A stretch of 64,000 nt of DNA from Siphonodentalium dalli (Eukaryota > Mollusca > Scaphopoda > Gadilida > Siphonodentaliidae), in assembly GCA_032622095.1 (NCBI GenBank), contig CP136067.1, positions 133,551,990 to 133,615,989 of the forward strand. Reading direction: 5' to 3'. Numbering within the stretch: the stretch's first letter is position 1; every line of letters begins with the position of its first letter. The notes under the pieces were generated by a model that saw only the letters and a list, made by a program, of their open reading frames with translations, had not been told where the DNA came from and ran no database searches. The position numbers were made by a program, and so were the translations under genes. Positions 10,001-55,800 of the stretch are shown in pieces.

Positions 10001-13000
10001 AATAAAATTAAACCATAAAACCAGAAACATATTTTCATATTGTTCTAACTCCCTTCAATCCCTAAAATGGTGTATTGCTGCCTTAATATAGACGAAGAAA
10101 CCAGCATGACTCGTAATATTTGTGGAGAAGATATTGGTGATGAATAAATGAACTAAAACGATTCCACCAAAGAGGTACATTGAATCGTCGTAAAGCTTAC
10201 CAACAGTTACTATATTCACCTAATACAATGAACCAATATATGCCTTTTTTTTCTGTTGCCCAGTATGTAACTTATTTATTGATCGTCCGGGTGAGGGCAT
10301 ATTTATGATTCTGGTTCATCGAGGCCAATATATTTTGAAAATGGCCAAAGATACTTTCATTTGGTTAAACATTATGGCCAAAATGTTTTCAGGGCTCTAG
10401 TCAGCAATCACCTCTCAAATTATCATCATATCTGTGTGATATCCTTAATTCGTTAACAGGTAATAAGCAGATGCTCACCTGTGTATGAATAGCAATCTAT
10501 CAAAAGTCATACATTCTTACTTATCAAAACAATGATGATTTAATAGCTGTTAGAATGTTGTCCTTTCTAAACCCTTCCATGACTGAGCTTACTGCAATTT
10601 TGCGCAAATCTTGTGCCAATGCATTCTCTTATATATGCGAGTCTCCCATAGGGAGCATCGCATATATGAGAGAATACATGGGCCTAACAATATTTACCTT
10701 GACCTTGTACGCCAGCACATTCTCTTATATATGCGAGGCTCCCTATGGGAGACTCGCATTTATAAGAGAATGCACTGGCACAGGATCTTTAATGCTGCAC
10801 CAGTGCAGCTCCTGTCATGACAGGGTTAATAAATTGACCATATAGAGAGGATACTCACTGTGAATTTTGCTGGCAGGCCCCTCGCACTGATGACATTCAC
10901 CATAAAGTTGATGTTTTTCCCGACGAGTTCATTCGGGTCTTCTATATAAATGTCATCCGATTCGGTGTAGATTTTACCCTTGTCATTACATGGAAGGACT
11001 TCAATCTGAAAAAATTTAATTCAAGTAAAATTAGTTTCAATATTTCTAGTGAAAAATTATTCTGATTACGTGCAGATTTTACCCTTGTCATTACATGGAA
11101 GGACTTCAATCTGAAAAATGTCGATTTAAAGATGCATAATCCGAATTAATCGGGGGAAGAAAAAAAATATTTGAGTCGAGGAACCCACCACCATCAAAGC
11201 TCAGAGTGATCAGATATCGATTTTTGAAATCTATTATTTTTCACCACCGATAATTTTTAGTGGCCCAGTAAAGAGTAGATGAGAAAACTGTGTCAAACCA
11301 AATTGCAGATGAAGATGGATAACTCTAAAATCAAGTGGCTTTTCTGTGTTAGATATTTGACAAACCGGCAAAATTTCGTTGAACAGAATGTTGATAAATA
11401 ACAGGTTTTGGGCAATTTGATACTATAGTTGACTGTGGTTAGCATTATTTTTGGGCAATAAAATGATTCTGATAACTGAGCGGCATTTAAAAAAATGTTG
11501 TTGTTGTGGAATCTGATGACATGGGGACCATCGACTCAGATTGAGTACCTCTAAAGGGGGACTGTATTTCAATCCAATTGAGACACCTTCTAACTAATAT
11601 ATTCAACGGTAAATATGAAATAAATTAATTAATTTTAGTCGAGGATGTGCATGCAAATACAAAGAACTGCAGATAATAATATGATAATTATACTAAAAAT
11701 AGTATTTGACTGCATTCATTTACTAAATTACATTATCTGAAAAGTTTCGGTATAATTAATTAATTAATAATTAACCATTCTTCGACATAAACCAGTATTA
11801 ATCCTACCGATTTCACTAGCTGGTTACATCAAAGGAAATTAAGACTAGACCACACTATTACTTTGAGCACACCATCTTCAAATCAGAATTCTAGAGATTT
11901 TGATCTGATTGATTATCATCAATGATTATCATCGCCTTTGTAAAGAGATGGGATGACATTATAACTCACATTGAGCACACCGACTTTCTTTCCTTGATAA
12001 TCGATCACATGACATTACAACTAATCAAACACATGGCATGATAACTTACATTGAGCACACCGACTTTCTTTCCTTGATAATCGATCACATCCAGCTGTTC
12101 TTTGGCTTCAATCTGAAATAATGATGAATAAAATATTGGGGACAAATTCGACAAATATATGTGCCAAATTTCCCCACAGCACAAAAATTTAAGCTATTAA
12201 AGGATCCCTTAACCCTGTCTACACTAATATGGATTCTCTCACACAGTTAAAAAAGTACAACAAACGACCTATGGCCGTTTGTTGAAATTGTTATCTTAAC
12301 ATTTCCCTAAGGGATGACTACTCATCAATGATGCTTCAGTAAACAGGTCAGGCACAACATGAATTCAACTATTATAGTTATAATATTTATGTCCAAAATT
12401 GTACCTACCTTGTATTTAAGTATATAAATAAAAGCAAATAGCTGGCTCATTTGGGGAGCCTTTATTCAGCCTTTATTCATTTCTTATGAAACCTCTCAGG
12501 TACATGTATGTGGCATGTCAGGGGCTAATACAGGCTGAATTTGACCAGGTATCAAAGATTTGGACAGCCTAAATTTTCAGCTCTAAATACCATAGCACTG
12601 ATGTCATAAATATCATAATACCATATAAGATAATGCACTGGCACTGGCACAGGGTCTTTAATGCTACATCAGCGCAGCTCGCGTCACGAAAGGGTTAAGT
12701 GATTTGACATACTAATATTGCGACTCACAGCGCATAAACTTGTTTAACTCAAGTATTTCAATAAGTTTGTATAAAAATTTCCAGAACAATACAACATTCT
12801 TTCATATAAATTAAATAAAGTGACTCCCTGTTTTTTTGTGGAAACTATGTGATCGTACAAAACAGTGCACACACACAGGCAAAGTGCACTTGTAGCAACA
12901 TTACAGCATATGAACAGTTTCCTGATAAAATTGGGTGGAAATAGACTGAAGGACAAGCTGATTTTAGGATGGAGTATGACCATACCATCCATATAAGGTA

Positions 13001-16000
13001 TTGGACAGAAATAGACTGACGGTCAAGCTGATTTTAGGATGGGGTATGAACATACCATGTAAGGTATTTGATGGAAATAGACTGACGGACAAGCTGATTT
13101 TAGGATAGGGAGGACGGGTTCTTATGAACGTACCATATAAGCTATCGGCTGGAAGAACACAGTCGTGCTGCCGATAAGAGCATCCTGAGTATAATCTTCA
13201 TCGAATGGATCCTTTTCCTAAAACATAAATATCTCGAAGTTACTCAAATGAAGCCATACTGGCCATGACATGATAGAATATATATTATAAGTTACAGGGC
13301 GAGTTGTTGCTGGATACGGTGTCATATGAGCCGAGCCCAATATTAATCTTGCTGAGCCTCATGTCACTGTAGCAGGCAACTAAGAGTCTGGTAATGATTA
13401 CATCATGCTTTCCAATTTGAATTACTTGTACGAATCATGATAAAACTTCACACGCATTTATATAATGTTGTTATTTTTGTATTCAACTTTGATGTACTCT
13501 TTACATTAATGAATTTTTAAAATACCAGAAATACCAGAAAGGAACCCATTACTGTACAAATTATATGTATGTTCGTTCGACAAACTCTCTGACTGATTTT
13601 TCACACATATTAACCCTTTCATGCTTGGGTCTGCGCTGGTGCAGCATTAAATATCCTGTGCCAGTGCATTATCTTATATATGCGAGTCTCCCATATATAA
13701 GAGAATGCACTGGCTTACAAGTTCAAGGTAAATATTGTTAGGCCAATGCATTCTCTTATATATGCGAGGCTATATAAGAGAATGCACTAGCACAGCATCT
13801 TTAATGCTGCACCAGCACAGCTCCCATCATGAAAGGGTTTAAGAGTAGTCTCCCTTACCTTTGGCATATCCCACTCGTCCCCTTCAAGGAACTCCTGGTA
13901 CATCTCTTGCATGACATACTTCCTGTTTGTAAACTTCGGCTGAGACCACACCCACTCATGCTTTGTCTCCAAGTGCGTCACTTTTATCATCACCTGAAAT
14001 TTAACATTTAAATCAGTGAAAATTCAATTCAATTTCTGTTTTGGACTATTTAAGTAAAAAAAAAAGGGTTTTGGATCTCGGGCAATTTTTGTTTTCAAAT
14101 CAGTGATGGAGGGAGGCTTTAATTATTTCTGCACATAGTAAGTATGGTAGTGCTGAAATGGTTTGGGATTTTCAGGAGATGACTAGTCGACAGAGGTAAA
14201 CGAATACTAGTCGATTAGTTGGACCCCTTCCAAAATTTTGCGTTTCTATGCCCATATGTATAAAATGGGCCATGTGGCATCACAGTTTTGAGTATCCAAC
14301 TCTCCATGTCAGAACGTTCAAATGGAAAGCACGAGACCTGTATAATCTCCCGTATTGCCCGTGAGTCTCCCAATTTGATGTCTTAAACCCTGCGCTCCCG
14401 CAACCTCCATATAATTCTCACGGTTTGGTAATGCAGGTAATAAAATAATTTCATTTAAAATAAAAATTGTCGCCGGTAACCAGGAAGTAAATAAACTTGA
14501 GTTCACCACCCATGCATGACTGATGGCAAAGGCATCGTCAAAGGAACAATACATTAAGTTAATATGTGTTAACTGTTACAGTTTACGTGATAATTTGGTC
14601 CATGCAATGACACTGCTGTCGTGATAGCATATAGGTAGTGCTTTTTCCCAATTAAACGACTAGCAGATTTTGGGGTCGACTAATTTAATAATCGCATCGA
14701 CGTCGATTAGTCGGATAATCGTTCAACACTAAAGCATCATGACCGGATCACAGATCTGCAGTTATTGGGATTCGACCAGCTTTGCCATCGCTGGATGGCT
14801 TATATTGGCTTATGCAAAATGCACCTTAATACCGACTGAGCCATTGAAGCACCTGTATGTTTCAGTTTGACCTTGACCTACCTCTGTTCTGCCCTTGAGT
14901 TCTCCCCTGCCTTCAGGTGTCACTATCATCAGCTCAAATTTCATCTTCTTATCAAGCTCCTCGCTTATAGAGTTAGCTTCTTCTATATGTGGCATCATCT
15001 CGAGCAAGTCATTCTGTAGCAGCAGATCATCTGTGGATTATTAATCATCAATATTTACATAGCCGTCCGTTTTACACTAAATCCTGTTCGGTAATTGGTC
15101 AACTGCCAATTGATTCACCCGTTTCATACCCCAATAACACAGACAGTAAAATGAACATGACGTCACAAATTGTTGACCTAATCACTAAATGTGGCCGGCA
15201 GAATAATTGGTGCTTTTAAAAGTTCAGCCAAATTGCATCTGAAGCCAGTTATTTATATCGATCACATAATCGTTGGTAAGTGCTTGGAAATATTATTTTG
15301 GGCTGACATAATATTTAACCTCTTCGCTGCTATGACGTCCGTATCTATTACGGACGTAAAAGTGCACGCCGTGTGCTATATGGTCCGTAGGTACTACGGA
15401 CCTACTTCAGCACACTAGAAGTAGGCCATCATACATAACTGGAACTGAGAGATTAGTGCATCGGAATAACTGTATCTCGACGTTTCAAACAGTGTATGAT
15501 GTTCCACGATTGTGAACAATAAAAGCCTTTCAGCTGAGTCACTTTTATGGTTCATTTGGCATTCCCGCTATATTTTCCCATTGGAAAATGCCAATAACGT
15601 CAACAGCCCAGCACACGACGTCATAACGTCATTTAGCAGCGAAGAGGTTAATGTGCTGCGTGGGCTGGTCTCAAATTCTCGGCAGATTTGGTGAAAATAA
15701 ATAAGAATACAATCAGCGTTTTTAAGGGAATAAATCATCAAAAAGCTATATAAATATAATAAATGAATGTAGTGGGTGTGTGTTATTAGGGGATAAGGCG
15801 CTGTGGTCATTGGGGGGATATTTAGTGAGAACAATGTGCCCTAACAACAACAGCAGTACTGGAATCCCCAATAACACACACACCCATTACATTCATTTCT
15901 TAATTATATGGGAGGCTAAATTCACACTTTTCAGCATAATTCAATCGCGTCGCAGCCAACTTAATCCTTTTTTATTAAATTTATTCAATATTCAGTTATA

Positions 16001-19000
16001 AAAGTATACAAGCCTTAAAATAGTGTGCCTGTCATTTGCAGAATGAGGTCCGCAAAGGGTGAATTTAGTGATGCTACTCTGAACAGCAGGCTAGCATCAC
16101 CAAATTCACCCTCTGGGTACATCATTCGGCTTATGCCTCATCTTCTGGGAAGTATCTATAGTCTCAAATTAACATTGTTTTTAGTTAGTTTTTATCCTTC
16201 TATTCAGGCCTCAGCTTACCAGGCGAGTAGGGCGAAATAGTCGCCCTCGACGCCTCGAAGTCGCCTTAGTGTCGCGCCAGGGAGAAGTGAAGTCGCCCTC
16301 CGATTTCCCCAAAATTATCCTACGGCTGTAGTAAGCGATAAGCCATGCATGTTATAGTGTTACAAATCAATTATGAATATATCGCCTGCGAGTCAAACAG
16401 TGACAAAATGTTGACACAAGGTCGACTCCTTTTGTTTAACAGCGCTGAGTAAGTAAATGCGGTCTTCAATGTCCAGACAAGGATTATAATATATCAAACA
16501 AAGAAGCCTTCCGTTTTGGCCATACTTAATAAAGTGTTGGTTTCTGCTCGTCCCGACTGACTGCTTTAAAACCGCCGACTCAAATTATTATTATATTGCC
16601 GATTTAAACATTTTGTTTGTTTTAGTTCCGTCTTTGTGGTATTCCGTGTTTTTACGCAATAACAGAATGCTAATCGAACGGACCTCAAATAATTCTATTG
16701 AATCCGTACTCCCTTTAAATTATCCGATGTTGCCTGATGTTACTGAATATATTTGACGACAAAATTATCCGAGAGCACCATTTTATAGTGTGCAAATAAA
16801 GTTTTAATCGTTGTATTGCCTTGTTCGAAATAAAACGTGATCCATAACCGGAAAATCGTAATTTTATTCCCAATGATTCAGTGATTTTAGAGACACTCGG
16901 TAGTCGATGTCAAGACTCAAGGCCGTTAATTGTGGCATATATATGCAAACCAAATGCAACAAACAATCTATATTACATTTAAATGAAAAATTTGAATTTT
17001 TTTCCATGATAATGTTTTTTTCGTTTGTTTAACCTCATATTAAATAAATTATCAGATGAAATTATTCTCCAGTCTCTCACTTCTCCCTATTTTTCTCTCA
17101 CTTCTCCCTATTTCTGCCAGAGGGAGAAGTCACTTCTCCCTATTCTCAACCTGCAAGCTGAGGCCTGCTTCTATTCAGTTTCTATATCCCCTAATTTGCA
17201 GAAGATAAAATGAACAATCGAGGTGACCATTCTATGACTATACTATGCTAGCCTGCTGAGCGGGAAAGCATCACTAAGTTCACCCTCTGGTGACCTCATT
17301 CAATTCAATTCAAATCAATATAATAATATTAATATAGATATACTTTTTGATTTATTGCCACCATCCACATCAAATCCTGACTTTTTAGCGACTTCTTCCT
17401 GCGCCATTTCGAAGTTGATCTCTGGGAAGGGAATCTTTGAAGCATCTCGTTCTTTGGGGTTGATGTAAACATAATACTGTGTCGTACCAAATATTAATCT
17501 GTAAGAGAAAAACAATTAATTGAAAATACATGATTCAGACACAAATGTGTGGATTTCTGTAGAGAGCTAACTTAGGAAGGCTTACTCAAGTGAATGCGAT
17601 TGTTTTTGCAAAAAAGATCATATTTTTTCAGCAGTATAAAAATGAATTTGGTTGAAAATAATCTGCATTGGTATATTTTTATACCCCACCTCCATATAGT
17701 TTTTATGCACCCCTCACATAGTTATGTTTTATACCCTTCCTCACATAGGTATGTTTTTATACCCCCCACATAGGTATGTTTTATAACTCCCCACACAGTG
17801 GGCTAGCATCACTATATGGACACTCTGGGAACCTAATTCTGCTTAGGCCTAAACTGCTATGGGAGACCTAGGATCAGAATGAAGTCACCCAGTTCACGTT
17901 GGTGATGTTCACCCATTAGTCATCTCGATTATGCATTTATCTTCTGCAAATTAGGGGATATAGAAACTAAACAGAAGGGAAAAAGAAACTAAAAACTATG
18001 TTAATTTGAGACTATAGATACTTCCCTGAAGATGAGGCCTAAGCAGAATGAGTTCCCCAGAGGGTGATTTTAGTGATGCTAGCCTGCTGGGCAAGGTAGC
18101 GTCACTAAATTCACCCTCTGAGGACCTCAATCTGCAAATGACAGACACACTATTTCAAGGCTTGGTCATATCTTTCCTTGTAAACATACAGTAATGCCCT
18201 AAATAATCGACTAGTGAGAGCTTTCCGATGAATGGCAACAAGTCATATTTCCGACTAAATCCTGAAAAGTTACCCATAATTCTGCGGTGGTTAAGGAGTC
18301 GATTATTTTGGGCATTACTGTACTTGTCATTTTATTTCAGTACTGTTTTTGTCATGACTGGTTTGGTCATATATTTTCATGTAAACATACCTGTCGTTGT
18401 GTTTGAGTTCTGTTTTTGTCGTGACTGGTTTGCCATTTCTCAGCATCTTCTCGTTTGCCTCATGAGGCTCGATACTAAACACATCACCGGCTTTTGTGAT
18501 TGTACAATGAACGTCCAATATACTGAAATATGAGAAAAGCAGAAATTATATCAGTTAAAGGTACTCAATCCGATCAGAGGGTCCCCATATCATCAAGATA
18601 CAACAACAACATTTCTTCAAAATATGCTTTACTTGCAACAAAATAATGCTAACCACGGTCAACTATGGTATCAAATTTCCCAAAACGTGTTATTTATCAA
18701 CATTTTATTCAACGAAATATGGCCGTATTATCACTTCAGTATTCACAAAATTTGACCGTATTAACACTTGTTTTTAGAGTTATCCATCTTCATCTGCAAT
18801 TTTGACCAAGAACATCCATTTGATGGCGTGTTTCTGGGCCACGAATAATTGAAATAACAAACTTCAAAAATCGATATCTGATCACTCTGAGCTTTGATGG
18901 GTGGGTTCTTCGACTCGAATCAAATATTTTTTACACCTGAAGCCAAAGAAAAAATCATTTAGGAGCGTTAAATCGGATTGAGTACCTTTAACTGAGTACG

Positions 19001-22000
19001 GGACAGGACTCAGTCCAAAACAGCATCAACCCAACCGACATCCCAAGCTGCTGTGGACCGAAAAGACTTGGTCTATGTACTGTTAACAGCAGAGAGCTAT
19101 ATTCGATAAAAATTTGTGCATGCTTCAGCTGGCGATGCTGGTGAATTGAAAATCTGAGATATCCCCAAAGGCATACTTTATAAACATACTTTATAAACAA
19201 AATGATCATACGAGACATTTTTGACCGATCAAAGATTGAATTAAATGCATTATATGAGCTTTCAAACTCAAATATAAACAATCATTCCACATGACTCATA
19301 TTGATTTCACTGACCCACGTGCTTGTGTTGATATCTATCAAACATGCTATAATTAAAATACTCAACACTGATTGCAGAATATCTTATGATTTTGGGGCGA
19401 TTCCATTCATTACGCTTGGCTACAATGAGTAAATTACCCTGGGTAAAAGTGAATGGAATGATTTTTGGTGACCGGAGTAATCTAAAAATAAAAATATAGT
19501 TACAACTGCAAACAAAACATAATTTTTTATTCAGGAAATTTGACAAAACTCACTGAGAGCTTTCCGATGAATGGCAACAAGCCATATTTCCGACTAAATC
19601 CTGAAAAATTACCCATAATTATACTGTGGTTAAGGAGTCGATTATTTAGGGCATTACTGTAGATTGCTGTCTACTGAGGATTAGGAAAGACAGCTGAGCA
19701 ATTGAGTAAAATGTTATTTGCAAATGTTTATTACAGGGGGCGACTCAATCCCATTGAATGTAATAGGGCTTCACGGTATTTCGTTTTTTAGTCATATCGC
19801 GATACTGTTTTTGAAACCGTGTAGTTGGTTTCACTTTATGCAAATAGTCGGTACATCGTAGCCGCCGGTGTGGATATTAATACCGACGATATCACTATCA
19901 GTGTCAAGTATTTAACAACCCTCAACACCTCTAATGCTGAGACAAAGGCCATGGCTAACAGCCTCAGTTTAGCGTGGGCGTCAAAATTAATTAACTCTCA
20001 CTGCTCCATAAGCGTTTGTCAACACACTGCGGACAATCAAGTCGGCATGCCTCATTGAACGGGCGGAAATTGATGTTTATATAGTCTGTTCTCAGCTCAA
20101 TATTGCTGGAAGGTTTCCTGGTCAAATACAATAAAAAATGTGTGGTGTTTGTATAATCTGGAGACTCAATGACGCGCGTTCAACAGCGCCACAAAAGCTT
20201 ATCCATTAGACGTATAATGCTCTAACTGATTAGATAATTAATGAAAGGTATATAACTACACGATCAGGTATCAGTCCTATACATCCAGTTCTCATGCTAC
20301 TTTCGAAATGGAAAAGTTAAAATCAGATACGGACTTACTTCCAAAACCAAACACTACATCACCTGTGTGGACCTACTTTGGTTTAGAATCCGGCGACGAT
20401 GGCACACCCAAAGACGACTCACATGCGATATGCCGATTATGCAACAAGAAGGTGGCTGCAAAATCCGGCAACACATCAAACCTTCTTACTCATTTAAAGA
20501 ATAACCATCCTCCAACATATAGTAAGATTAACATTGTTCGGAAACGAAAGCGCGATGAAACGTACATACCAACAAAACAACCAATGATAACAAGCGCAGT
20601 GCAGGCATCATCATCATATGAAACGAACTCACGCCGATGGAACCTTCTGACATCATCAGTAACGGAACATATTGCAGGAGATATGGTTCCAATATACACC
20701 GTTGATCGTAAATTCTTTCGAAAAATGTTACGGAATTTCGATCCCAGATATCAGCTTCCCTGTCGGAATTATTTCAGTGATACTGCTATTCCAAAATTGT
20801 ATAATGATATGCGTGAGCGTGTGCTTCTGGAGATGAACGAGGTTGAGTTTTTCTCTGCAACAACCGATATGTGGTCGTCAATCGGAATGGTTCCTTATTT
20901 AGGGTTCACGGTGCATTTTATTGACAAGGACTGGAGCCTACAATCTCGTGTTCTAGAAACATTGTATTTCCCAGAGTCTCACACTGGTGCAAACATCGCC
21001 GAAGTTATGAAGGATGTACTGAAATCGTGGAACATAACAAGTTCGCAGTTAGTTTGTCTGACGACCGATAATGGCAGTAACATCGTCAGTGCTGCAGAAC
21101 AGTTAGAGTGGACTCGATTATCGTGTTTCGGCCACAATCTTAACCTTGCTGTTAACAATTCAATTAAAGATGACAAGCGTGTCACCAGAGGTCTCGCAGT
21201 GTGTCGAAAAGTGGTGTCTGCTTTCTCAACAAGTTGGAAACGGCGCCGTGCTCTCACTGTTGCTCAAAAGGAGTTGAAACTAGACCAGCATTCACTAATT
21301 GCCGATTGTCCCACACGATGGGGTACAAAGTATGACATGGTAAAGCGCATCTCGGAACAGGAGGCACCTCTTCGCAAAGTTCTTAGTTCCAGCAACAAAA
21401 CGTCACATTTAGTTCCCACATGGCAAGATAATGACGTATTTGAGGCTATCATTGAAGGACTCGAACCAGTGTCTGATTTTACGGACATATTATCGGCCGA
21501 AAACTATGTGACAGTATCTTCCCTGAAGCCAATGATGGACCACCTCGACACAGAACTACTTAAGACTGATAACAACAAGCACAAACTGACACGTGATGTG
21601 AAAAAGCGAATTAAGTCATATATGGATAATAAATATGACGACGATGAGACAGATCGACTCATTTGTTTGGCATCTTTCCTCGATCCACTCTACAAAAATC
21701 GTTTCCTAAATGAGGAGGACTTAAAGTTTGTCAAATTAGACATCACTGACGACAAAACAATGCATGTTGCCAATAAACCAACCACAGAAATAGTTGACGA
21801 CATTCAACCAGATGCTAAGAAGAAGAAGACACTTGCGTCACTGTTCGCTGCAAAAACTACAGTTTTCGATGGTGACACGTCTGATGATAAGTTCATTTCG
21901 AATGAGATTGACAGCTATCTGGCATTGCCATGTGCCACTGACGATACCAACCCATTGGACTGGTGGATAGTTAACAATAAACAATATCCGAATCTAGCAA

Positions 22001-25000
22001 AGTTCGCTAAGAAATATCTATGTGTTTGTGCAACAAGCGTTCCTTCTGAACGATTATTCAGTAAATCAGGAATGATTGTCGCACCGATGCGATCGTGTTT
22101 AAAACCAGAGAAAGTTAACATGCTATCATTTCTCGCTTCCAATTTGTGAAAATATGAAATCAATACATGTTTGCTGTTATTATTTACACGAGCTTCATTT
22201 TTAATGTCATAAGCGACCCGCAGTTGGTAGGGAATTCCCGATTACGTCAGGCACTTATAAATATATCTATCCGTCGTATAAAGAACGAAACTCAGGACCA
22301 TTTATATTAATTATTTATTTGATATACCTGTCAAAGCAACATGTGTTCATAATTATCATTATCAAATCAATAATGCTATATTTTTGTCTGCTTGCTACTA
22401 GTATCATTATCAAACAGTTCTAGTAACTTCTACTCAAATTTATTGGTGACGATATTTAGTCATATCGCGGTATCATTTTCCACACCGTAGTCGGTATTAA
22501 AATCCGGATACCGTGAAGCCCTAGAATGTAAGTGAGAGTATATGATGTTGAAACTTAACTAAGGACAGCTCATACCTTGGACCATGGAGTGGGATGTCAG
22601 CACTTGAGCTTTTGCCGACGGTGATTGACTCTGACTCGAAAAAGTGAATGATATGATCAGATAGCTGTGGATCCATATTCAAGTTGGATAGGTGAGGGAT
22701 GGTTTTCTTCTTAGCGATTCGATCTGAATCATCTATTGCAGACTAAAAAAAAAAGAATTTAAATAATCAGTACCAGTAGTGAGTAAACTCAATCATTAAT
22801 CAACCCTATCTTTATCATCCCTTTCATGACAGGAGTTGCGCTGGTGCAGCATTAAAGATCATGTGCCAGTGCATTCTCTTATATATGCGAGTCTCCCATA
22901 GTTCATATTAGAGAATGAACTGGCTTACAAGGTCAAGGTAAATATTGTTAGGCCAATGTATTCTGTTATATATGTATATGCATATATAACTTATAAGAGA
23001 ATGCATTGGCACAGGGTTTTTGCAAAATTTCAGGTAGCTCCAGTCATGGAAGGGTTAATTACTTATTAATGGGTAGTTCCCTTAGGAAATGTTCATATTA
23101 ATGGCCATTTGTTGAATATATTATCACAACTTTACCCATCAATTAATAGCAATCCTGTTATCTGTTTGTCTGTCTGTCGTCTGCTTATATTTCCTGAATA
23201 CCCCTCCAGATAAATAATAGACCATTCCAGTGTATATATACTTTTATAACTGAATGGGGGAATCCATTAAATAATGAAAGGGTTAACGGATAGGCCACAC
23301 ATTGGGTAGCCACGTCAATGTTGTTTTAAGCCAAATAACAGAGATAAGTCTTAACCCTTTCAGTGCCAAGTCCGATTTTTGTATCAACCCATATTTCCTT
23401 GATGATTTTTCAAATTTATTGATTATAATAATGTGATACATTGATGGAAAGAGCTCTTAGATTGATACAAAAATCGGACTTGGCACTGAAAGGGTTAAAG
23501 ACATACTATGGACTTGATCGCGTGCATGAGATTGATGTTAGTACTCCGCCGCTATGCTAACCTGGGGCATGTAGCATTCCACTAACATTGCCGAAAATTT
23601 CAAAGAAATCGACCAATTCACTCCATAGAAAACATCGTCTGAACTATGCTCAATTGTAAATATTTACATCTCAATTCAGGATGCAAATATCGGCAATAAA
23701 CTCAGACAAATGATTTTGCCATTGAGCATCATTGCATTTAATTAATATTTTAGAGTGACGGTGTGTGATGTCAATTTGGATAAATATTTGTAATAAATAA
23801 CTACTTTGAGCAAGATTATTATCAATTTATATTTGATCACCCAACCAGAGCGCTTCACATCAATTTAATTAAAATGAGTCAGACCAAACTACAGAATACA
23901 GATTCACAAAAGATAGCAGAACAAAGATTCAAACAGAGGGGGTGGGGGATACATACCCCGGCTTCTTTCAGTTTATCTTCGAACGTTTTCTTCATCTCCT
24001 CCATATCCTTCTGATTTTTATCCAGCAGACTCTTATACTCTGCTTCTAACTCTTGCTTAATCTGCTCCTTCTCTGTAGTGAAAAATACAGTAATGTCCTA
24101 AATAATTGACCACAGCAGAATTATGGGTAATTTTTCAGACTTTAGTCGGAAATATGGCTTCTTGCCATTAATCGGAAAGCTCTCACTGATTCACTGCATT
24201 GCACGAACAAATAATTGGTCTCTCACTGTAATTTTCTCATGAAATGGACCGTGGTAATGTAATTTAATGGGAAGGTTTTTCATGCAAAATGTGAATTTGG
24301 ATTAGTACAGATCCTCTAAGACTGTAAGCTAGCCCATGTCCAACAGGATGGTGTTCCAAAACTGTTTAGAGTACATCATGGAAAGAACGTTTATGTGGGA
24401 ATTTAATTCAAATGGAAGTTTACACCCAGAACTGAAATTATGCAGCTGGACCCACTCACTTTAGTTTTAAATTCAATAGCAGTTTTGAACGAAAAACTTC
24501 TGAACATTTAGAATGAAACAGTAGAAGCTCCTGAATTAAGATGCACATCGCATTCTTTCTATAAATACAAACCTTCTTCAGTGAGATCGTCATCATCACC
24601 ATCAGCTCCGCCCCCAGCTTTTATCATATCCATGGAGATGTTCCCAGAAGCCATTGCAGCCTTAAGTTTCTCGTTCTCCTCCTGAAGCTCTCGGATGAGT
24701 TTTTCTGTTGGGTCCTCGTTCACCGATGCCTTGGTTTTAATCTGTTTGGCTCTATCAGCTGTGGTTAAGAACAAAGTATCATGTTCATTAAGAGAATATA
24801 AGTACATCTACATCTATACTTCATATGTATTGAGGGTTTAAGATTTCCAGTTACGTATATACAACAGTGATTTAAAATGTCAAATTTATCATCACCTTTC
24901 TAATTATGGCAGTGAAAACAGTGCATATAGATGTCAAAGAATGTCAATTTTGTTATTAAAAATTGACAAAATAATTAATGATGTCCCTTTAAAACTTCAA

Positions 25001-25564
25001 AATAATATGAAATAAATCAATAGATTATTTAATATCAAACAAGATAATATCCTGTAGACGTCACTTGTTCCAAACATGTGCTTGTAACCTTGAATACATC
25101 AGTAAATTGGGGAAATTCACCAATTCTTTAACTTTTTCTCTTTTTTTGCTATCTATTACCAAGAGCATCGATAGGATGTGGCAAAATACATCAAAATAGC
25201 CATTTCGAACTGTACTACTACTACTACTACCGCAAAATACAATAACAATTTGAGCTTACAAAGAATATCTGATATACCCCTAATTCTATCTTTGTCTGTA
25301 TTTTTAGCACATAAATACACATACCAACTTTAATCCAAACTAGATCTATCGATTGGAACGAAAATTGAGTGCGAATTCCAACAAAAAGGGCTTTAACTCT
25401 GGTGAAAATTGGCAGGCAGAACTCAAATTCGAACTTGACCTATATTTTGTGTTAGTATACCCCACATAACAAATTTCATTCCATTCAGTTCAGACTTACT
25501 AAAGAAAGTTATCATCAGGAAACCAAAAAAAAAGCAAACGGATGAACAGATGGACCGACGGACG

Positions 25565-25621
<57 letters not shown>

Positions 25622-28600
25622 ACGGACGAACCAATAAGATAATACATTCCTTTTTTTCTTCAAACAGGTGTATAAAAACCAATAGCAAATGAAATGATAT
25701 GAACAGATACATTCGGTGATTGATCTTGGATGATTGGAATGGGATGAGACAACTTCAGAAATTGCTGACGACTAATAAACCGATTTGAACTTTTCCTCAG
25801 ACTTTGTTTTGGAAACAGAGAATAGCCATCAATACTAGGTGAAATTTCCTTGGAAGACATCAAGTGTTTTTGACATTTTCCATTCTTAACCTTTCAAATA
25901 TTTAACTATGTATCTCACCATATCGCAGTGTTCCTAGTGACTCATCGTAGTTAATGTCAGCTGGACTAATGGCAGCAATCTGTAAAGATAGGACACATGT
26001 AGTAGACCAAGAAGCCAATCCCTGTCAGTGGATGTTCAACCCTTACCTCCAATAATACAATAGCAGCAGTATGTAGAATTCAAATGAGATTTTAGATAAT
26101 ATATAATAAAGTGGCATGTCTCTATTCCTGGTAGTGTTGAAACAACTAGTGAATATCAAAGTCGACTAGTCGAGGCCCAAAAGTCGCGTTGCGTCGACTA
26201 GTCGGTACCCGATATCAAAACTTTCAAACATAACATGGTATGGAAAATTCATCGTACGTGGCGTACACTGATGACTGATGCAATGACGGTCTATTGCGTA
26301 TCGCATTTCCCTGCACAGACACCAATTTATTTGGGAAATAATACAGTAACATCTTGATATTTATCCAACACACTGAATGTAATTATATAATTAGACATGT
26401 GGTGGATAATGATTAGAAACACGATCATTTATACAGGTTCTAAATTTAATATCAGCGTTCGAGATTTCGTTTAATCACGTGATCACCAATAAACCGGTGC
26501 CGAGCAGTGTCACTATAAAATGTTAATGTTCCGACTAAATACGCCATATAGTATAGGCTACGTTATAGAATACGATAGCAAGTTATTAATGTCAGTATCA
26601 TTTATATACGGTAGCACCAATGACGTCACCTTAAGCGACCTTCACACAGCGTCACATCATAACCCGACGGTGCGAGATCAATTGAAATATACACAGCGTC
26701 TAGATAAAAGCGGTCTCCGACAAACGATAAAGCCGCGTCAATCATTGCATCATGACGCAGTGATGTCTTTGACCTCAAACGACGTGAGACATTGTGTTGT
26801 CAATTTGATTCTTTCAATTTCATAGTCAGGTCACCGTGTGTGTCTATACTAGTAACACTGTCAATTCCGGGTGCCACCAAACGTTATACTTACCGTAACT
26901 TACGCGCAGTTAACACCGTTTATGCCGGAATCGATCTTGAAAACGTTATATATGTAACTAATACACTATGTTCCGACTAGTCGACGGCAAAATTCAGAGT
27001 CGACGTTCTGACATTTCAGCGTCGACTACAGCTAGTCGATTAATCGTTTCAACCCTAATTCCTGGGTCTAAGATCAAAGCTCAATACTTTTTTGCTAAAA
27101 TTCTCTCTTTTCTTGAAAGTCCAAGTTTGCTCTTACGTAAACCAGCCAGTTAAATCGGCATAGCAACATATTGATTTAGGTCCAAGACCGCTCCCATCAA
27201 TCTTTTATGATGGACTTTACTCCCAGATATGATGGTGGGGTTTGTCATCAATTATAATTAACTGTATCCTACATATCATCATGGAATGATAAAATTATTG
27301 GAAAGAGTGATGTATTACAGTCACAATGATGTATTATAATAAAACCTTAACCCTTTACCCAACAAACCGGCCAAAAACGCCCAAATAAAGCTTCAACAGC
27401 CTAACATATCTTCGGTCTGTCTCGATAACACCATACAAATATGGATATCATTGGAACCGGTTCATTGACCACATTGTGATGGTTACAGTTATGCCCTGTG
27501 CCAATGCATTCTCTTATATATGCGAGTCGACCATAGGTCGCCTCACATATATAAGAGAATGCATTGGCCTAAAAAAAATATTTTTTTAACACTTTTTACC
27601 ATTTTTTCTTACATTCTTTAACAATTTTATAATTTTTTCTTACATTTTTTATAATATTTTTCTACATTCTTTGACAATTTTATCATTTTCAATATGTGTT
27701 AAGCCAATGCATTCTCTTATATATGCGAGGCGACCTATGGTCGACTCGCATATATAAGAGAATGCATTGGCACAGGGCCGTTCTGTTGGGTAAAGGGTTA
27801 ATGTTAAAATAGGCATAGAATATGTTTTTAAATTAGAATTAACTATGATTCAATCATGATTTGTTTATGTTTTCAAAAAGACTGTGAATGTAAATTATAT
27901 AAACTGACCATTTTAGTTTATGTCATGTGAACTATATAAACTGACCATTATAGTTTGTCATATGAATTATATAAACTGACCATTATAGTTTTACTGTTTC
28001 CTCCCAGAGCATTCTTCAATAACTTTGTGAGAACAGAGTCTCTGTAAGGCACTGTAACAGAAAAGTTTGTTCTAAAAAAGTGTAAACAACAATCCAATAG
28101 GATCAAGGATCCCTTTTTTTTAACAATAAAGAGCGATAAGTATTTTTCTGGACAAGATAAATATAAAGATCGTTTATGGAAAGTTGTAAACATCTGAATG
28201 ATCTGATAAACTTCTATTCCATATGTACGACCAGGGTTCGCGCTGCCACTTGCCAAATTTGCCAATGGCAAAAATAAATCACATTTGGCAAAAAATATTT
28301 TCATTTGGCAAAAGTTTTGGCAAGTCACTTTTTCAAGAAAGTTGAAAAAATATTGGTCAATCAATACCATTCATTTCAGGAAACTCTTACAACATAATTA
28401 TATTAGTGGTGTTTTATAAGGTTTAGGAAAAGTTAACACCTCTATTAAGATGCAGTTAATCTCAGTAGTTGGTTGGAGGGATTACCAGTATTTAGTGTGG
28501 TGATGGTGTTTACATACATGTAGCTAATCCTATTGTGATGGGCCCTTCTGATGAAGCAACCCTTCTATATATCATGTTATTGTTCGGTGATTGATTTATT

Positions 28601-31600
28601 GTTGTATGATGAACAACAGTGGAGATGCGACCATACTTCTTAACTAACTGCTTTCCTATCGATAGCAAAAGTCGTTCAAACCACGAGTGTCGAAATATCA
28701 GACTCAATGTTGCAGGTAATGATAGTATCAGGGATAGCATTTGACCAATTCTAAAAGAATTTGGCAAAAATAAATATCATTTGGCAAATTATTTGGCAAA
28801 AGTAAATTTCGGCCCAGCGCGGACACTGTGTACGACTGTTCGAGTGTATAACGCATGCATAGTAGTAATTTGTATACTTACCAACTGATATATTGGCATG
28901 ACAAAGGTAAGAAATTACAATGTCAATTTTGAGATCTGAGTCATTTTAAACGAATCAAATGAAAAAATTATGATAATTTCCAGACACCCGGCAAATTTTT
29001 GACAAAACATCCAATTCTCTGAACATTTGTTTCCTAAAACAACTGTTATTAAATAAACATGCAAATTAGCAACCAATGAAAAGCAAGTTAATAGTCATAA
29101 ATCTCACCTCTTGTGTTCTTTCCACCGGATCTGTCGGCCAGAGCCGAGATAACGTTTCCCAAACTGGACAGTGACTGATTGATAGCGGCTCCTTCTTTTA
29201 GTCGATCGCCTGTGGCTCCTGTGCTGTCTGCTCTCTCACTGGTAATTAACAATATTATAATTAATATATAAAGATTTTAATGTTTCCAGGTTGACTCTCA
29301 CTGGTAATTAACAATATTATAATTAATATCTAACTATTTTAATGTTTCCAGGTTGACTCTCACTGGTAATTAACAATATTATAATTAATATTTAAATATT
29401 TTAATGTTTCCAGGTTGACTCTCACTGGTAATTAACAATATTATAATTAATATATAAAGATTTTAATGTTTCCAGGTCGACTCTCACTGGTAATTAACAA
29501 TATTATAATTAATATTTAACTATTTTAATGTTTCAAGGTCGACTCTCACTGGTAATTAACAATATTATAATTAATATTTAACTATTTTAATGTTTCCATG
29601 TCGACTCTAACTGGTAATTAATAATATTCCATAATTAATATATAACTATTTTAATGTTTCCAGGTTGACACCATAGGGATCTGAGAACATTTTCATGATA
29701 ATTACCATGTTGTTTGCATCATTCATAGAGTAAATGAGTGTATTTTGCACTCATCCATGGCTCAAATTTCATTTATTTGTTGCATATATTCTGTTGAGTA
29801 TAAAAGGATATGGCCAGATTTAGTGTACAATACTCCTTTAATTAATCGCAAAGTAATTGGATGTAACCAAAAAGTATTTGATTATTTTCAGAAAAGTATT
29901 GTATTTGTAATCAAACACATCAACTGGTAAAACTATTTGCATTTTATTTGTAATCATAAAATTGTATTTGTATTTTAATCAAATACGTTAGACATGTAAT
30001 TGTTGTTGCACCTAGTAATTAATATGAGAACAAACTTGATCTATTTCTCAATGTTCTTATAAGAGGTTATGTTTTTATAAAACTAGAGGTGTGACTGTCC
30101 CAATGGGACTAAGGATACCCCCCGTGTTTTTAAAATAATAAGATGTTTCACATGTCAGTAAACATTTAGTTAAAATAATAAAATAACAGTTCCCATTGCA
30201 GGTGCACAACCCTAACCATAATCTTAAACCTATTGACCGAAAAGTTTAGGAATAAAAGTTCTAAGTCGAAAAAGGGGAATAACTCCAAAAAAAAAAGTCG
30301 GACAGACATCATAATCGCAGGTGCACAGGTTCCCATGGTACTAAATATCAGTGCCAAGATTAAAAAACATTGAACTAAAAATGTAGGAATAAAAGCTCGG
30401 ACAAAATTATGCATGTTGCAAAAAATATTTCTAAGTCGAAAAAGGGGAGATAACTCCACCAAAAAAAGTCCGACAGATGTCATTGTCATAATCGCAGGTG
30501 CACAGGTTCCCATGGTGGTTTATGTCTGTGCCAAGTTTCACGGAAATTGATAAAAAAAACGACTGAGAAAAACTCCGGACAAATTTGTGTCCACGGACGG
30601 ACAGACAAGCTGATTCCCGTATACCCCCCCCCCCCACCCTAACTTCGTTGCGGGGGTATAATAATATATTTTTTGCACATTCACTTTAAATTTTATATAA
30701 GCCATCTCTGTAGCAACTGAAATTTCACAAGATGTAAGAACTCACCTCCCAGCCAAGTCGACTAAATTAACAATGGACGATTTATTAGTTTCTTAGAACT
30801 CACCTCCCAGCCAAGTCGACTAAATTAACAATGGACGATTTCTTAGTTTCTTAGAACTCACCTCCCAGCCAAGTCGACTAAATTAACAATGGACGATTTC
30901 TTAGTTTCTTAGAACTCACCTCCCAGCCAAGTCGACTAAATTAACAATGGACAATTTATTAGTTTCTTAGAACTCACCTCCCAGCCAAGTCGACTAAATT
31001 AACAATGGACGATTTATTAGTTTCTTAGAACTCACCTCCCAGCCAAGTCGACTAAATTAACAATGGACGATTTATTAGTTTCTTAGAACTCACCTCCCAG
31101 CCAAGTCGACTAAATTAACAATGGACGATTTATTAGTTTCTTAGAACTCACCTCCCAGCCAAGTCGACTAAATTAACAATGGACGATTTCTTAGTTTCTT
31201 AGAACTCACCTCCCAGCCAAGTCGACTAAATTAAAAATGGACGATTTATTAGTTTCTTAGAACTCACCTCCCAGCCAAGTCGACTAAATTAACAATGGAC
31301 GATTTATTAGTTTCTTAGAACTCACCTCCCAGCCAAGTCGACTAAATTAACAATGGACGATTTATTAGTTTCTTAGAACTCACCTCCCAGCCAAGTCGAC
31401 TAAATTAACAATGGACGATTTATTAGTTTCTTAGAACTCACCTCCCAGCCAAGTCGACTAAATTAACAATGGACAATTTATTAGTTTCTTAGAACTCACC
31501 TCCCAGCCAAGTCGACTAAATTAACAATGGACAATTTATTAGTTTCTTAGAACTCACCTCCCAGCCAAGTCGACTAAATTAACAATGGACGATTTCTTAG

Positions 31601-34600
31601 TTTCTTAGAACTCACCTCCCAGCCAAGTCGACTAAATTAACAATGGACGATTTATTAGTTTCTTAGAACTCACCTCCCAGCCAAGTCGACTAAATTAACA
31701 ATGGACGATTTATTAGTTTCTTAGAACTCACCTCCCAGCCAAGTCGACTAAATTAACAATGGACGATTTATTAGTTTCTTAGAACTCACCTCCCAGCCAA
31801 GTCGACTAAATTAACAATGGACGATTTATTAGTTTCTTAGAACTCACCTCCCAGCCAAGTCGACTAAATTAACAATGGACGATTTATTAGTTTCTTAGAA
31901 CTCACCTCCCAGCCAAGTCGACTAAATTAACAATGGACGATTTCTTAGTTTCCTCTCCAGCTGAGTTCTTAAAGACTTGAGCAAATTCTATACCAACGAT
32001 GGTGTGCGCTCGGCTGAAAAGAAATTAATGTCAAGATGAGAGATTTCTATAATAACAATGAAATGAGAAAAAAGATTATAGTACCAAATGTTAAATTATA
32101 GTACGAAAAGTTAAATGTGAACTTCGAAGGATTATAGTTCCAATAGGTAAATGAACAAGGTGGTTTATGTGCATACAGTAATGCCCTAAATAATCGACTC
32201 CTTAACCACAGCAGAATTATGGGTATCTTTTCAGGATTTAGACAGAAATATGGCTTGTTGCCATTCATCGGAAAGCTCTCACTGACTAAATCCTGAAAAG
32301 TTACCCATAATTCTGCTGTGGTTAAGGAGTCGATTATTTAGGGCATTATTGTATCTAAATTACTCTATACACCTGTCAGTAATCCCATCCCTGAGGATAT
32401 ATAAGCCCAGTGTATGTGTTTGCTCCCAATGAGGTGGTCCTCGAAGATAAACCAACCCTATCTTTAGAATTGATGTCAGGTTAACTGAGTGAGGATGACA
32501 AGAATTCATGCATAAAAATAGCATTACTCCAACTAATTTCTACTGCAAACTCATTAATACACTATGGTTTCTACGCTTACTGACAGGTGTATACAGTAAT
32601 TTAAATACAATAATACCACTTTATCCACCGCTCACTACCTCTATTGCCTATATAAAGCGTGCCTAATAAACGTCACGTTTATTACATCAATGTAGCTTTA
32701 TTAGGTCAACTACTTTCATGACGTAATTGTATATGCAAATTGCGCAGCTAATAAGGGACGTCAACCGACCTAAATGACGTCATTGGGATTTTGGGACGAT
32801 TTTATCGTCCATAATTCACCATAATTGATACAAAATTCATAAACGGATATGTGTTTTCGCTCTAAAACATCTATAAACCATTGATACAAGGCCAACTTAG
32901 AAAACTATAAAAAAAAAAAAAACCAACAAACTATTTTGCTCTAAGCTGCACTCCGGTTTTTGCACTTCATGTATGCTAATTAGTTCGCATGACCTAATAA
33001 ATGTAAGGGTGTCATCAAAGTAACGAACGTAAAACTGAGGAAAATGACAGATTTACTTCACAAAAGGCAAGTTTTGTGTGATGGATAAATAAAATATGTA
33101 GCTAATGTTAATTGTCGCTTAAACTGTTTATGTCCGCTCGGGGGATTTAACATCTATTGGACTCGGTAGAGCCTCGCCCAATAGATGCTCAAATCCCGCT
33201 CATGGACATAAACAGTTTAAGCGACGACACTAGCAACATATTCTATATTTATTATTCCTTTATTTATAGACAAATAGAACACACAATCTTCAGGTATGTC
33301 TATGTTTTATGAATTCACAGAAAAAATTATTTGTAGTATTGATATTGGGTTTTTACAAAAATTATGTTATTGTTGTAATTGTATACACTATCTTTAAGTC
33401 ATACATTCATTCATCTATGAATGAGTATGATCTGTCTGTCTGTCTATCTGTTCGCGTTTTTTCTCCCAGACCCCTGGACCAATTACAACCAAAATTTGGT
33501 GTGGCGTTTCGGAGTACCCTGGCCGATATTTTAACGGTGTTAGTTGTTCAATATTTTTATTTTTTTTAAATAATTTAATTTAAAATTGTTTTTAAATCAA
33601 AATGTTTAAAAGATCATGTGCGCTAAGGGGCCACTGAATAAAAGCTCCTAAACGGAGCCTGTTTCAGCTAGTTCAATGAGTTCATGTTATTGTATAAGAA
33701 GGGAGTATGTGTATAAACCACCTTTAAATTAGCACCACGGTAACTGCTTCGATCTGTATGCCTAGCATGCTTCTCATTTCGAACCGGATAAAATATTTAT
33801 CCCCCGTTCTGAGAGGCAACATGAGTGGTGCGTATCAATTAAAACAAATCAATTATGGGCACTTTCTAAAGTATGTAACACTCCTCCTGCTTCCTATTTG
33901 ACATTCAAGAACTGCTACCGGACGGGACACAATGGAAGCCGATAATCCCGCACACTTGTGGAAATAATTGGAAGAATTATAGGGGTGGGTTATCAATAGC
34001 TGTTATAGTGCTGTATACAGATGCCCGTCAGTTTCCGTCAACTCGAAGATGCTTATTAAATGCTCCCATGGTGCTAGCCTATTTATTTGTAAGGATCTGT
34101 TGGCCAAAATGAAATTCTAGTAAAAGGCTGCTGGGCAGGGTTGGCACTGGACCCAAATTTTCTCTTGCCAAAATTTTTGTCAGATGAAATTATTTTTTGC
34201 CAAATTTCAATTTTTTTTGCCAAATTTAATTGTGGGTATAATTGAAGGAAATTCTCATTTTTTACCTTTGTTATAAACAGTAAAAACTAACCACATACAA
34301 AGGAAAAATGAGCTAGTAAAGTAAGTTAGTATTATTAATAAATATTACATTGAGAGCATGTTATTTATTCCACACCCATTGGCGTGAGTCACATGTATTC
34401 AACGGAATCCCAGCCATTGAATACAAATTAGTGTATACCTCTAGTGGAATACAAGCCGGAACTATTCTTGTTGACATTGTCGCCAAGAAAGATGACGTAC
34501 ATTACGTCGACCATCTGCTTCCGGTGATCCCCCCATAATTACTGGTTATTTGTCAGACTTAAATCACAATAAACATAGCTATAGTAACAATGAAGGTGAC

Positions 34601-34817
34601 TTTCATGGATTGAACTTATCTGACTGAACGGTGTAGAATAAATACAGAACAAAACTTGCATCATAATCTCGAATCTTTTATCGAACTCGTTGCGGACAGC
34701 GCAAAGGGATGCCATCCGTAACTCATTCGATAAAAGGGTCTCGATTAAGATGCGCATTGTGTTCTGTCTATAAATTACTTATACCAGCCTCAATGAAAAA
34801 TTTACAGAACATCACTT

Positions 34818-34861
<44 letters not shown>

Positions 34862-52800: not shown

Positions 52801-55800
52801 TTGAGTTGTAGCCTTCCCATGAGTTCTTCAGTACACCCTCTCCGAGATCGTCAAACACTTGTTGCTGAAAATAATAAACAACGACATATTATGGACTTGT
52901 TCGGGTGCGTGAAACTGATTAGTTAGTACTCAGACGCTATGCCAATTGTAGCAATGTAGCATTCTACTAACATGCCAAAATCTCAAGCAAATCGACTTTC
53001 CCACTCCATAGAAAACATTGTCTGAACTACGCTATATTGTAAAAATTTACTTCTAAATAGAGATATACCTGGCCTGCAAATTTCCAGCCATTACAGTGTG
53101 ATGTTAAATAGAGACATACATGTACTGGCCAGGGGCGCCGGAAGCATCCAAGGGCAGGGGGGGGGCAGAGCCTACAAAAAGGGCACTTTTCCGAAAAAAA
53201 AGGGCATTTTCTCCGCAAACTCGGGAAAATAACCATAAATTCATTGTGGCAAAAATCCCTATTTTAAAGGTATTTGTCGGTTTTTATGGCCGTTTTGTGA
53301 TAAAATTGACAAAAAATTAATATTCCTTGTGAAATTGGTGGTATTTAGACAAAAATAGTCACATTTTGCTATAAAAACACGAGATTAAACACACAAAAAG
53401 CATTTTCTGTCTCCAGAAAAAGGGCAAGTCCTGCCCCCGCTCGCCCCCCTTGGTCAAGGGCAGGGGGGTCAGCTGACCCCTCTGCCCCCCCTCTTCCGGC
53501 GCCCCTGGTACTGGCCATTGTAACAGGGTGTGATATCAAATAGACATTCATGGCCTACAAATTTCTTACCATTAGGGTGTGATGTTAAATAGAGACATGC
53601 CTGGCCTGTGAATTGCTTGACATTAGCGTGTAATATTGAATAGAGACATACATGTACATGGACCGAATTTCTGGACATTAAGGTGTGATGCTAAATAAAG
53701 ACATACCTGGCCTGCGAATTTCTGGCCATTAGGGTGTGATGTTAAATATATAGACATACCTGGCCTGCGAATTTCCGGCCATTAGGGTGAGATGGATCAG
53801 GTCCATAGTAACCATTGGACTCTTCTTTGGATCCATCATGTGACCAGTAACTGTGATCAAATGCAAACTTCTTGGCATCTGACGAATCGTTGGGGTCATT
53901 GATTATAGTTGTTGGACCGTTCATCTCAACAATAAGGGTCGCATTTCTTTCTCGTTCTCGTCGGTTGTAATTATGAGTTAAGAAATACTAACGTGTGAAT
54001 CAAATTTAATTAAATTAGGGAGGAAACTATCGCATAATGAAAAGGCATGTTCATTACCGCTATACTTAAAGTAATTGACCACCAATAACGTGGTGTCACC
54101 CCGTTAATACCGCGGTACTATACCGCAGTATCCTCCAATACCGCGGTACTGATACCGCTTGTTAATGCGAACAAGTATGTGGGAGTAAATACCTCCCCTC
54201 AAAGAGTTCCATGAAAATCAGCGCGGTATTCAAAAAAATTAATGCGGTGCCCTGCCCGCAAAAGACCGCGGTATTCAAAAAAATTAATGCGGTGCCCGCT
54301 AAAAGACTGCGGTATCATTATCGCCCAATACCGTAACTCCACCGCCGTGACCATCTCGATACCGCTACCGTTTATTACCGGTATCACCGCGGTCATGACC
54401 GGGGTATCACCCCGTTTTTCTGGTCAATTACTTTGAGAATAGCGGTAAGTAAGCTCGACTCTGTTCATGTGTAAAATCTCCACACAAGATCAGAGATACA
54501 TGTATGGAGTCTCAAACTAACCCACACAAGCAATTATGCCAGTAACTTAATGCCGCCATTTTGGAAGAAATATTATCTCCCGTTATAGTTTGTGACGTCA
54601 CGACCTCACTTGGCTGTTTAACGCTAAACTGTATCCTGTGCAATAGTCTGTGTTTAGACATGAAAATAAATAAAACAGCAGATTGAATGTTTGTTTTGCA
54701 CAATAAATGATTATCTGTTGTGAATAGATTATAGTTTTATTCACGAAAGATTGTTTGGTTGTCATATTTGCACATATAGAAGTCGTGTGAGTTTGGCCGA
54801 GATTGTCACATTCAAATGTTATGTGACCATTAACTTGCTGTAAATTAATTGTTCAAATTTATAAGGCCAAAACAAAATTAATGCGTGTTTCCCGTAACGA
54901 GTCCAATAAAAATAGGGGCGGGCGGTAGGCTTTTCGTTTTATTTTATTTTTTCATTTTATTTTTTTATGGTCTCTTGTGGGCCATGACTATACTCTCCCC
55001 TGCCTAATAATAGTGATGGCCAAATAATAGTGATGGTGCACATTTTCGGGTGTTATTAATAATAGTGATGGTGCCAAATAATAGTGATGGCGCACAATGA
55101 TGGCATTTTACCATATTTCTACTATAAATGAAGCAGAATGTAGGCCTTAATTAATTTGGCATTGTTGGGCAAGTTCCCATGCATGCAAGTTGTTCTCATT
55201 GGCTCCTTTAATAATGACAGTAAGTAATTTGGTAACAGTACCAGTCTGAGTAAGGTAAAGTACTGTGGTGATTGTAGCCAGGTTGGGTGGAAGCAGGCAC
55301 GGCTTTCTCAAAATCACAGCGAGGCTGCCAAGGAGGCCTCGCTAAATAATTTGCGAGGCTGCCTCACCTTTTTTGGGGCTGATTTTTTATAAACTCTAAA
55401 GATAGTTATCTTTCTTATGTCGCACATCGGCTATTTAAAATCCGACATAAAACTTAAATCCGACATAAAACGTAAGTTGTGGTTAATAATGTGGAACTGT
55501 TGCCAAGTCATCGCATTCATAATTAAACTGTGCTTTGAATACACGGACATGTTATTGTATTGCTTTATTGCATAGATTTAAATACATGTTCCTGTGTACA
55601 CACAGAAGCTACTGCGGTGTCGTAACTTTCCATTTATAGCCAAAACCAGTCACGCATGTGTGCACACGACTCACAGCTTCTGTGTCTTCATGATAGCGCA
55701 TAATTGGGTCACGATAACAGTATTGTTTGGAGAAGTCGGCCACGTCAAGTTAAATTAGTTCATCAGTTGTCACTCAGATTAGTTTCACTGATTATTTTAT

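Follow-up and report, generated by a model that had tools for sequence, protein, structure and literature searches.

Tandem copies of intron–exon boundaries, called mirages, are known from the lancelet globin genes BflGb6/9; as far as the accessible text of that report goes, both kinds of boundary are copied, splicing is seemingly undisturbed, haplotypes differ in length and the arrays serve as a model for the origin of new introns (PMC3087553). Repeats of 60 and 108 bp also lie over splice sites of lancelet PGBD5, in a report whose available portion cites the Adh and troponin C cases as well (PMC3902484). In the parts of the literature found, mirages are reported gene by gene, and in lancelets. 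Here we describe arrays of the same structure in a kinesin-3 gene of the scaphopod Siphonodentalium dalli, carried by a 64,000-nucleotide stretch (the window: GenBank assembly GCA_032622095.1, contig CP136067.1, positions 133,551,990 to 133,615,989 of the forward strand), together with an estimate of how often such arrays occur at other exons of this genome. Our analysis covers one genome assembly, at the level of DNA sequence. Eight exon edges of the gene have been copied in tandem along with their splice sites, and these arrays are probably mirages, namely minisatellites that started from short tandem duplications across an exon–intron junction.

The gene runs from 60710 to 5676 on the minus strand (window coordinates, which apply to all positions below unless a contig is named) and was modelled from open frames and splice sites as 23 exons. 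Spliced together, exons 1–21 form one open protein of 841 amino acids, in which Pfam recognises a kinesin motor (E 2.6e-99), an FHA domain and a KIF1B domain. The modelled part holds 22 introns, a correction to the 25 given in the first-pass annotation of this DNA. Arrays in the window, all described on the minus strand, were found with Tandem Repeats Finder (TRF), junction alignments and copy listings.

At four edges the TRF array itself covers the junction. The exon 2 donor array (53525–53794, intron start 53759) comprises about five copies of a 51–53 bp unit (51 bp × 5.2 by TRF) with 35 bp of exon in the unit, and the exon 7 donor array (30737–31952, intron start 31905) comprises 21 copies of a 58 bp unit that includes 47 bp of exon (the LVDLAG motif end). 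The exon 8 acceptor array (29233–29669, exon start 29238) has seven copies of 62 bp with 6 bp of exon, and the exon 9 donor array (27888–27992, intron start 27980) has 2.9 copies of 35 bp with 11 bp of exon. For the other four edges, the copied junction comes from alignment. The exon 14 donor (18300–18432, limits approximate; intron start 18390) is represented by two diverged copies about 67 bp apart; its score of 35 passes the 34-point test and fails the stricter junction-spanning test. Next to the exon 18 donor (12930–13154, intron start 13133) there is a diverged junction copy 78 bp away and a TRF array of 66 bp × 2.7 (12930–13110), which begins 23 bp inside the intron. The exon 19 donor (11931–12090, intron start 12049) shows two copies 80 bp apart with 41 bp of exon in the unit, and the exon 20 acceptor (10956–11165, exon start 11005) two copies 105 bp apart with 50 bp of exon.

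Counting the real site, the eight edges carry 2 to 21 copies at spacings of 35–105 bp. The edges, the copy range and the unit lengths are those named in the first-pass annotation, and the TRF run it had proposed returned arrays at the donors of exons 2, 7 and 9, at the exon 8 acceptor and near the exon 18 donor. Two properties connect these arrays to mirages: the tandem units span the exon–intron boundary and carry the splice signal, and both kinds of boundary are affected, with six donors and the acceptors of exons 8 and 20. Mirages are further marked by arrays that vary in length among haplotypes and by somatic instability. A ninth edge, the exon 21 acceptor, qualified by score; by eye it proved to be low-complexity pyrimidine sequence, and it was not counted. 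A search for pairs of donor octamers was uninformative, with 18 matches for the pattern and 14 for its reverse.

The exon-proximal sites yield an open protein and the nearest decoys yield stops: at all eight edges the relevant frame, read onward from the real donor or inward from the closest upstream decoy acceptor, runs into a stop codon before it has passed from one site to the other. This extends to every edge what had been claimed for the readable cases, and it implies that splicing must keep choosing the exon-proximal site, to which, judging from the sequence, it would be held. The copies always run outward into the intron, as had also been noted; this follows from the anatomy, since a working splice site must adjoin its exon.

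To place the window gene in context, we assembled a control sample of 140 other exons from Pfam searches (100 of 123 kinesin matches, 36 of 53 CCT chaperonin matches and 4 of 85 myosin matches), each with 600 bp on either side. The kinesin matches left out were the window's own three, copies in recent paralogues, and rows that were weaker or contained a stop; a single gene lying 23–63 kb from the window supplies at least six of the CCT exons. Background sequence consisted of 60 random 1.2 kb stretches of the genome, of 80 drawn. An event was defined as an array found by TRF at default settings, with a period of at least 25, that spans an edge and includes at least 8 bp of exon, and P values assume independent arrays and a fixed background rate. 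Arrays at locus L052 that repeat those at L038 were dropped, and an array at L181 touching about 4 exon bases was not counted as an edge. The array at L056 ends 2 bp before the acceptor and was therefore scored as intron-only.

Donors carry more events than uniform placement would give. Twelve of 140 donors have an array, against 2.35 expected from random DNA (P 6.7e-6) and 1.76 expected from the exons' own flanks (P 3.6e-7), whereas acceptors show no excess by the same test (1 of 140, with the same two expectations per side). The 12 donor arrays fall in 11 separate 200-kb bins and occur in kinesins (9 of 100) and in CCT chaperonins (3 of 36), which supports a donor focus that extends to other genes. 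Taking both sides together, with L056 still counted at the edge, gives 14 of 280 against 5.1 and 3.8 expected. Relaxed TRF scoring raises the count to 24 edge arrays against 9.3 or 4.9, with some of the edges unconfirmed by eye. When sampled edges flagged by any test were read by eye, copies, diverged ones included, were seen at 15 of 140 donors and 7 of 140 acceptors; this reading covered the flagged edges and a few others rather than all 280. The suggestion that a mutational process is focused on exon edges is supported for donors and, in the TRF event count, not for acceptors.

Arrays at edges also differ from their intronic counterparts. In the TRF set, 13 edge arrays have 3.1 copies against 2.0 for intron-only arrays (P 0.02) and a median identity of 96 against 86.5%, a borderline difference (P 0.05). 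With higher identity and more copies, the edge arrays look young and active. Unit boundaries of 17 two-copy arrays were inspected for microhomology, and nothing clear emerged.

The anatomy of the units suggests what allows an array to persist. In 18 donor units (6 from the window and 12 from the sample, leaving out the diverged L098, L185 and L075), the exon part measures 11–72 bp and the intron part 6–57 bp. On average the exon makes up 0.64 of the unit, where uniform placement would give 0.52 (P 0.0095). We infer that duplication affects exonic DNA more often than it affects introns. Every one of the 18 keeps at least 6 nt of intron, and six of the eight measured acceptor units keep at least 40 nt (the L038 acceptor was not measurable). 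Given the donor periods, a need for 35 nt at the acceptor predicts 2.4 donors per acceptor (1.7 for 25 nt and 3.7 for 45 nt); by inspection, the window and the flagged sample edges together contain 21 donors and 9 acceptors.

These features could be explained as follows. Small tandem duplications of about 30–100 bp would arise often in and around exons. Those lying wholly within exons would be purged by selection, and those spanning a junction would survive if the exon-proximal site kept its signals; for this a donor would need just some 6 nt of intron, and an acceptor, with its branch point and pyrimidine tract, usually 35–40 nt or more. Surviving arrays could then grow and homogenise through slippage or unequal exchange. 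Fill-in of staggered breaks is a plausible birth process: according to the available text, fill-in by CST-Pol alpha makes small tandem duplications close to the overhang length, with overhangs of about 43–50 bp (PMC8355091), and it enters here purely as a proposed birth mechanism. We suggest, tentatively, that about 1 in 10 5′ splice sites in this genome has been tandemly copied into its intron because exonic DNA beside donors is a duplication hot spot, that splicing reliably settles on the foremost donor in a row of up to 21 identical ones, and that the surviving units reveal how much intron each kind of site needs.

A number of results weigh against the mirage reading and its donor focus. 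In a coverage test, which looks up to 300 bp outward for a copy that spans the 50-bp junction, 17 of 280 sampled edges scored, against 209 of 2800 intron points placed 60–240 bp into the intron. An ungapped detector applied to both kinds of edge found 10 of 44 arrays there against 4.6 expected (P 0.01), a weaker, roughly twofold excess, and none among arrays of at least 97% identity (2 against 1.7 expected), which is hard to reconcile with the idea that edge arrays are simply the youngest; the identity gap in favour of edge arrays seen with TRF is, as noted, borderline. The donor excess depends on 12 arrays, the first look of the profile search may favour exons with repeated copies, and none of the 19 best-scoring kinesin matches (E at most 1.2e-15, every one in the sample) has a counted donor array. 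For six donor units the period was adjusted by hand to match the nearest unit, the acceptors L093 and L060 seem to keep just 8 and 16 nt of intron, and the 35-nt threshold was picked after the data had been seen, which makes its agreement with the ratio of 21 to 9 suggestive only. Finally, no birth mechanism was observed.

Part of this evidence serves a rival explanation, namely that minisatellites fall anywhere and that the window gene is a high draw, noticed as copies of exon sequence stand out. Arrays occur at comparable density around exons (1.89 per 10 kb; 31 in 164 kb, 29 of them distinct, as overlapping stretches showed two arrays twice), in random DNA (1.53; 11 in 72 kb) and in the window (1.09; 7 in 64 kb), so the window is not unusually repeat-rich. 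Coverage at edges equals that in introns, as the control proposed in the first-pass annotation would require if repeats were equally common throughout; random genome coverage is 9.6% (95% interval 4.7–15.9), and 8 of the 44 edges of the window gene pass, a count that includes the exon 21 acceptor and misses the exon 14 donor. The 44 edges contain a placeholder for the exon 22 donor, which was not found in the model. The coverage result stands beside the event count, and we do not take it as a refutation of edge focus: a junction lies only in the first unit of its array, while an intron point is weighted by n−1 units, an unfair comparison that led us to count arrays as events.

Counted in that way, donor arrays in the TRF set are five to seven times as numerous as this null predicts, edges and introns having been scanned with one detector. 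The ungapped counts are less favourable: their excess, also seen in an earlier, smaller set (8 of 31 arrays at edges against 4.1 expected), peaks at 90–97% identity (6 arrays where 1.8 are expected) and disappears in the most identical class. The larger ungapped set leaves out L056 and L192, whose expected probability is 0.6 or more; the L192 edge array has 97.8% identity. Visibility bias, the alternative raised in the first-pass annotation, should favour old arrays, yet the edge arrays in the TRF set have the higher identity, and it does not obviously account for the excess. Persistence bias, which would confine the excess to old arrays, received a mixed answer and was not adopted, the ungapped arrays lacking an excess at 97% and above and the TRF edge arrays having higher identity. 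On balance, we consider ordinary background an unlikely account of the donor arrays, though one to be taken seriously.

Less probable still is a sampling artefact, in which the profile search would prefer exons whose coding end is repeated and so inflate the donor count. Only the best first-look candidates are scored by the search (122 of 213 for kinesin, 87 of 99 for CCT), and the lack of counted donor arrays among the 19 strongest kinesin matches fits such a preference; one of the 19 is L181, the donor array with about 4 exon bases. Acceptors should however gain equally, yet TRF finds a single one in 140, and the CCT set, with most of its candidates scored, still shows 3 of 36. The exon 7 edge of the window, with its 21 copies, is itself absent among the listed kinesin matches. 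Bias in exon retrieval may still contribute to the donor count.

It is also conceivable that the arrays are functional, repeated 5′ splice sites being kept as extra U1 sites that aid splicing or protect the intron. The exon 7 array would suit this idea, as all 21 donors, the real one included, are intact and in register with an exact CTGGGAGGTGAGT, and donors outnumber acceptors. Decoys are intact or nearly so in most arrays; some, however, have lost the GT (L064 and L075) or are weaker (exon 14), and units start at varied positions in the exon, 11–72 bp from its end, leaving selection for extra sites improbable. Assembly errors are very improbable, given arrays of many identities at many loci and copies that differ from one another, the exact consensus unit following 12 of the 21 exon 7 donors.

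The mirage reading remains our preferred one. A few further loci in this genome were noted. Another kinesin, L192 (C2:63735358–63735573, minus strand), has a donor array of 18.5 copies of 34 bp; it lies at the same LVDLAG exon end as the exon 7 array, perhaps reflecting recurrent amplification at a matching position. In a dynein gene, the 3′ end of an exon (model positions 115–157) is seemingly repeated about 0.5 kb downstream (C5:102298067–102298195 and 102298725–102299024, minus strand), which is perhaps a longer mirage. A CCT chaperonin segment occurs twice, about 56 kb apart (C7:133433378 and C7:133489158), roughly 63–119 kb before the window, and three matching exon pairs score equal.

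The host gene has other features of its own. The best PDB match of the exon 3 peptide is 7wrg, named Kinesin-like protein, which we take to be KLP-6; we accordingly label the gene, as an assumption, KIF28/KLP-6-like. Intron 1 (60665 and 53966) has the donor ATATCCTTTT, a branch-like TTTCTTAAC and an acceptor ending in AC, making it look like an AT-AC intron, presumably of U12 type. Intron 13 contains a hAT transposon, whose open frame of 634 aa (20245–22146, plus strand) has a BED finger domain and a hAT dimerisation domain, and the introns also hold runs of C, 56 at 25565–25620 and 38 at 34820–34857.

How do these arrays compare with other splice-site duplications? A tandem duplication with splice signals is also seen in the potato RdRp gene (PMC4974935); to the extent that its available text allows comparison, the window differs in having its copies inside introns already present and a stop ahead of each nearest decoy, and in showing no new intron. 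A new intron bounded by duplicated AG and GT, the pattern of Rogers-type intron gain, was not seen at any of the eight window edges. Dispersed near-identical copies of the introner kind were not found either, in a search made with the exon 7 array only: a 151-bp piece of it has all ten of its listed genome matches at its own locus, the search skipping very common words. Tandem duplication of exon edges had been named in the first-pass annotation as a proposed route to new introns, and the same structures do carry that proposal in the accessible lancelet text (PMC3087553); in the window they amount to raw material for intron gain by duplication, with no new intron seen.

The closest match is with the lancelet mirages in Adh3, troponin C, the globins and PGBD5. 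In the accessible portions of those reports, the arrays are likewise minisatellite-like copies of boundaries, many with AG/GT, at both 5′ and 3′ sites, and their units of 10–160 bp bracket the spacings of 35–105 bp in the window. The edge structure itself is therefore already known, while its rate across genes and the donor excess were not found in the literature searched. Nor did mirages outside lancelets turn up there, which is no proof of their absence. The genomic setting is different: lancelet genomes are about 0.5 Gb in 19–20 chromosomes, and the assembly studied here has 2.23 Gb in 9 contigs. Our counts provide an estimate of the rate of mirages across many genes of one genome, with a donor excess that needs explanation, and rows of identical splice sites such as the 21 at exon 7 offer a natural test of the spliceosome's choice among several equal donors. 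Within the accessible text on the lancelet cases, the scaphopod arrays stand apart in that they affect eight edges of a single gene and reach 21 copies at an edge, with a rate estimated from many genes and an excess at donors.

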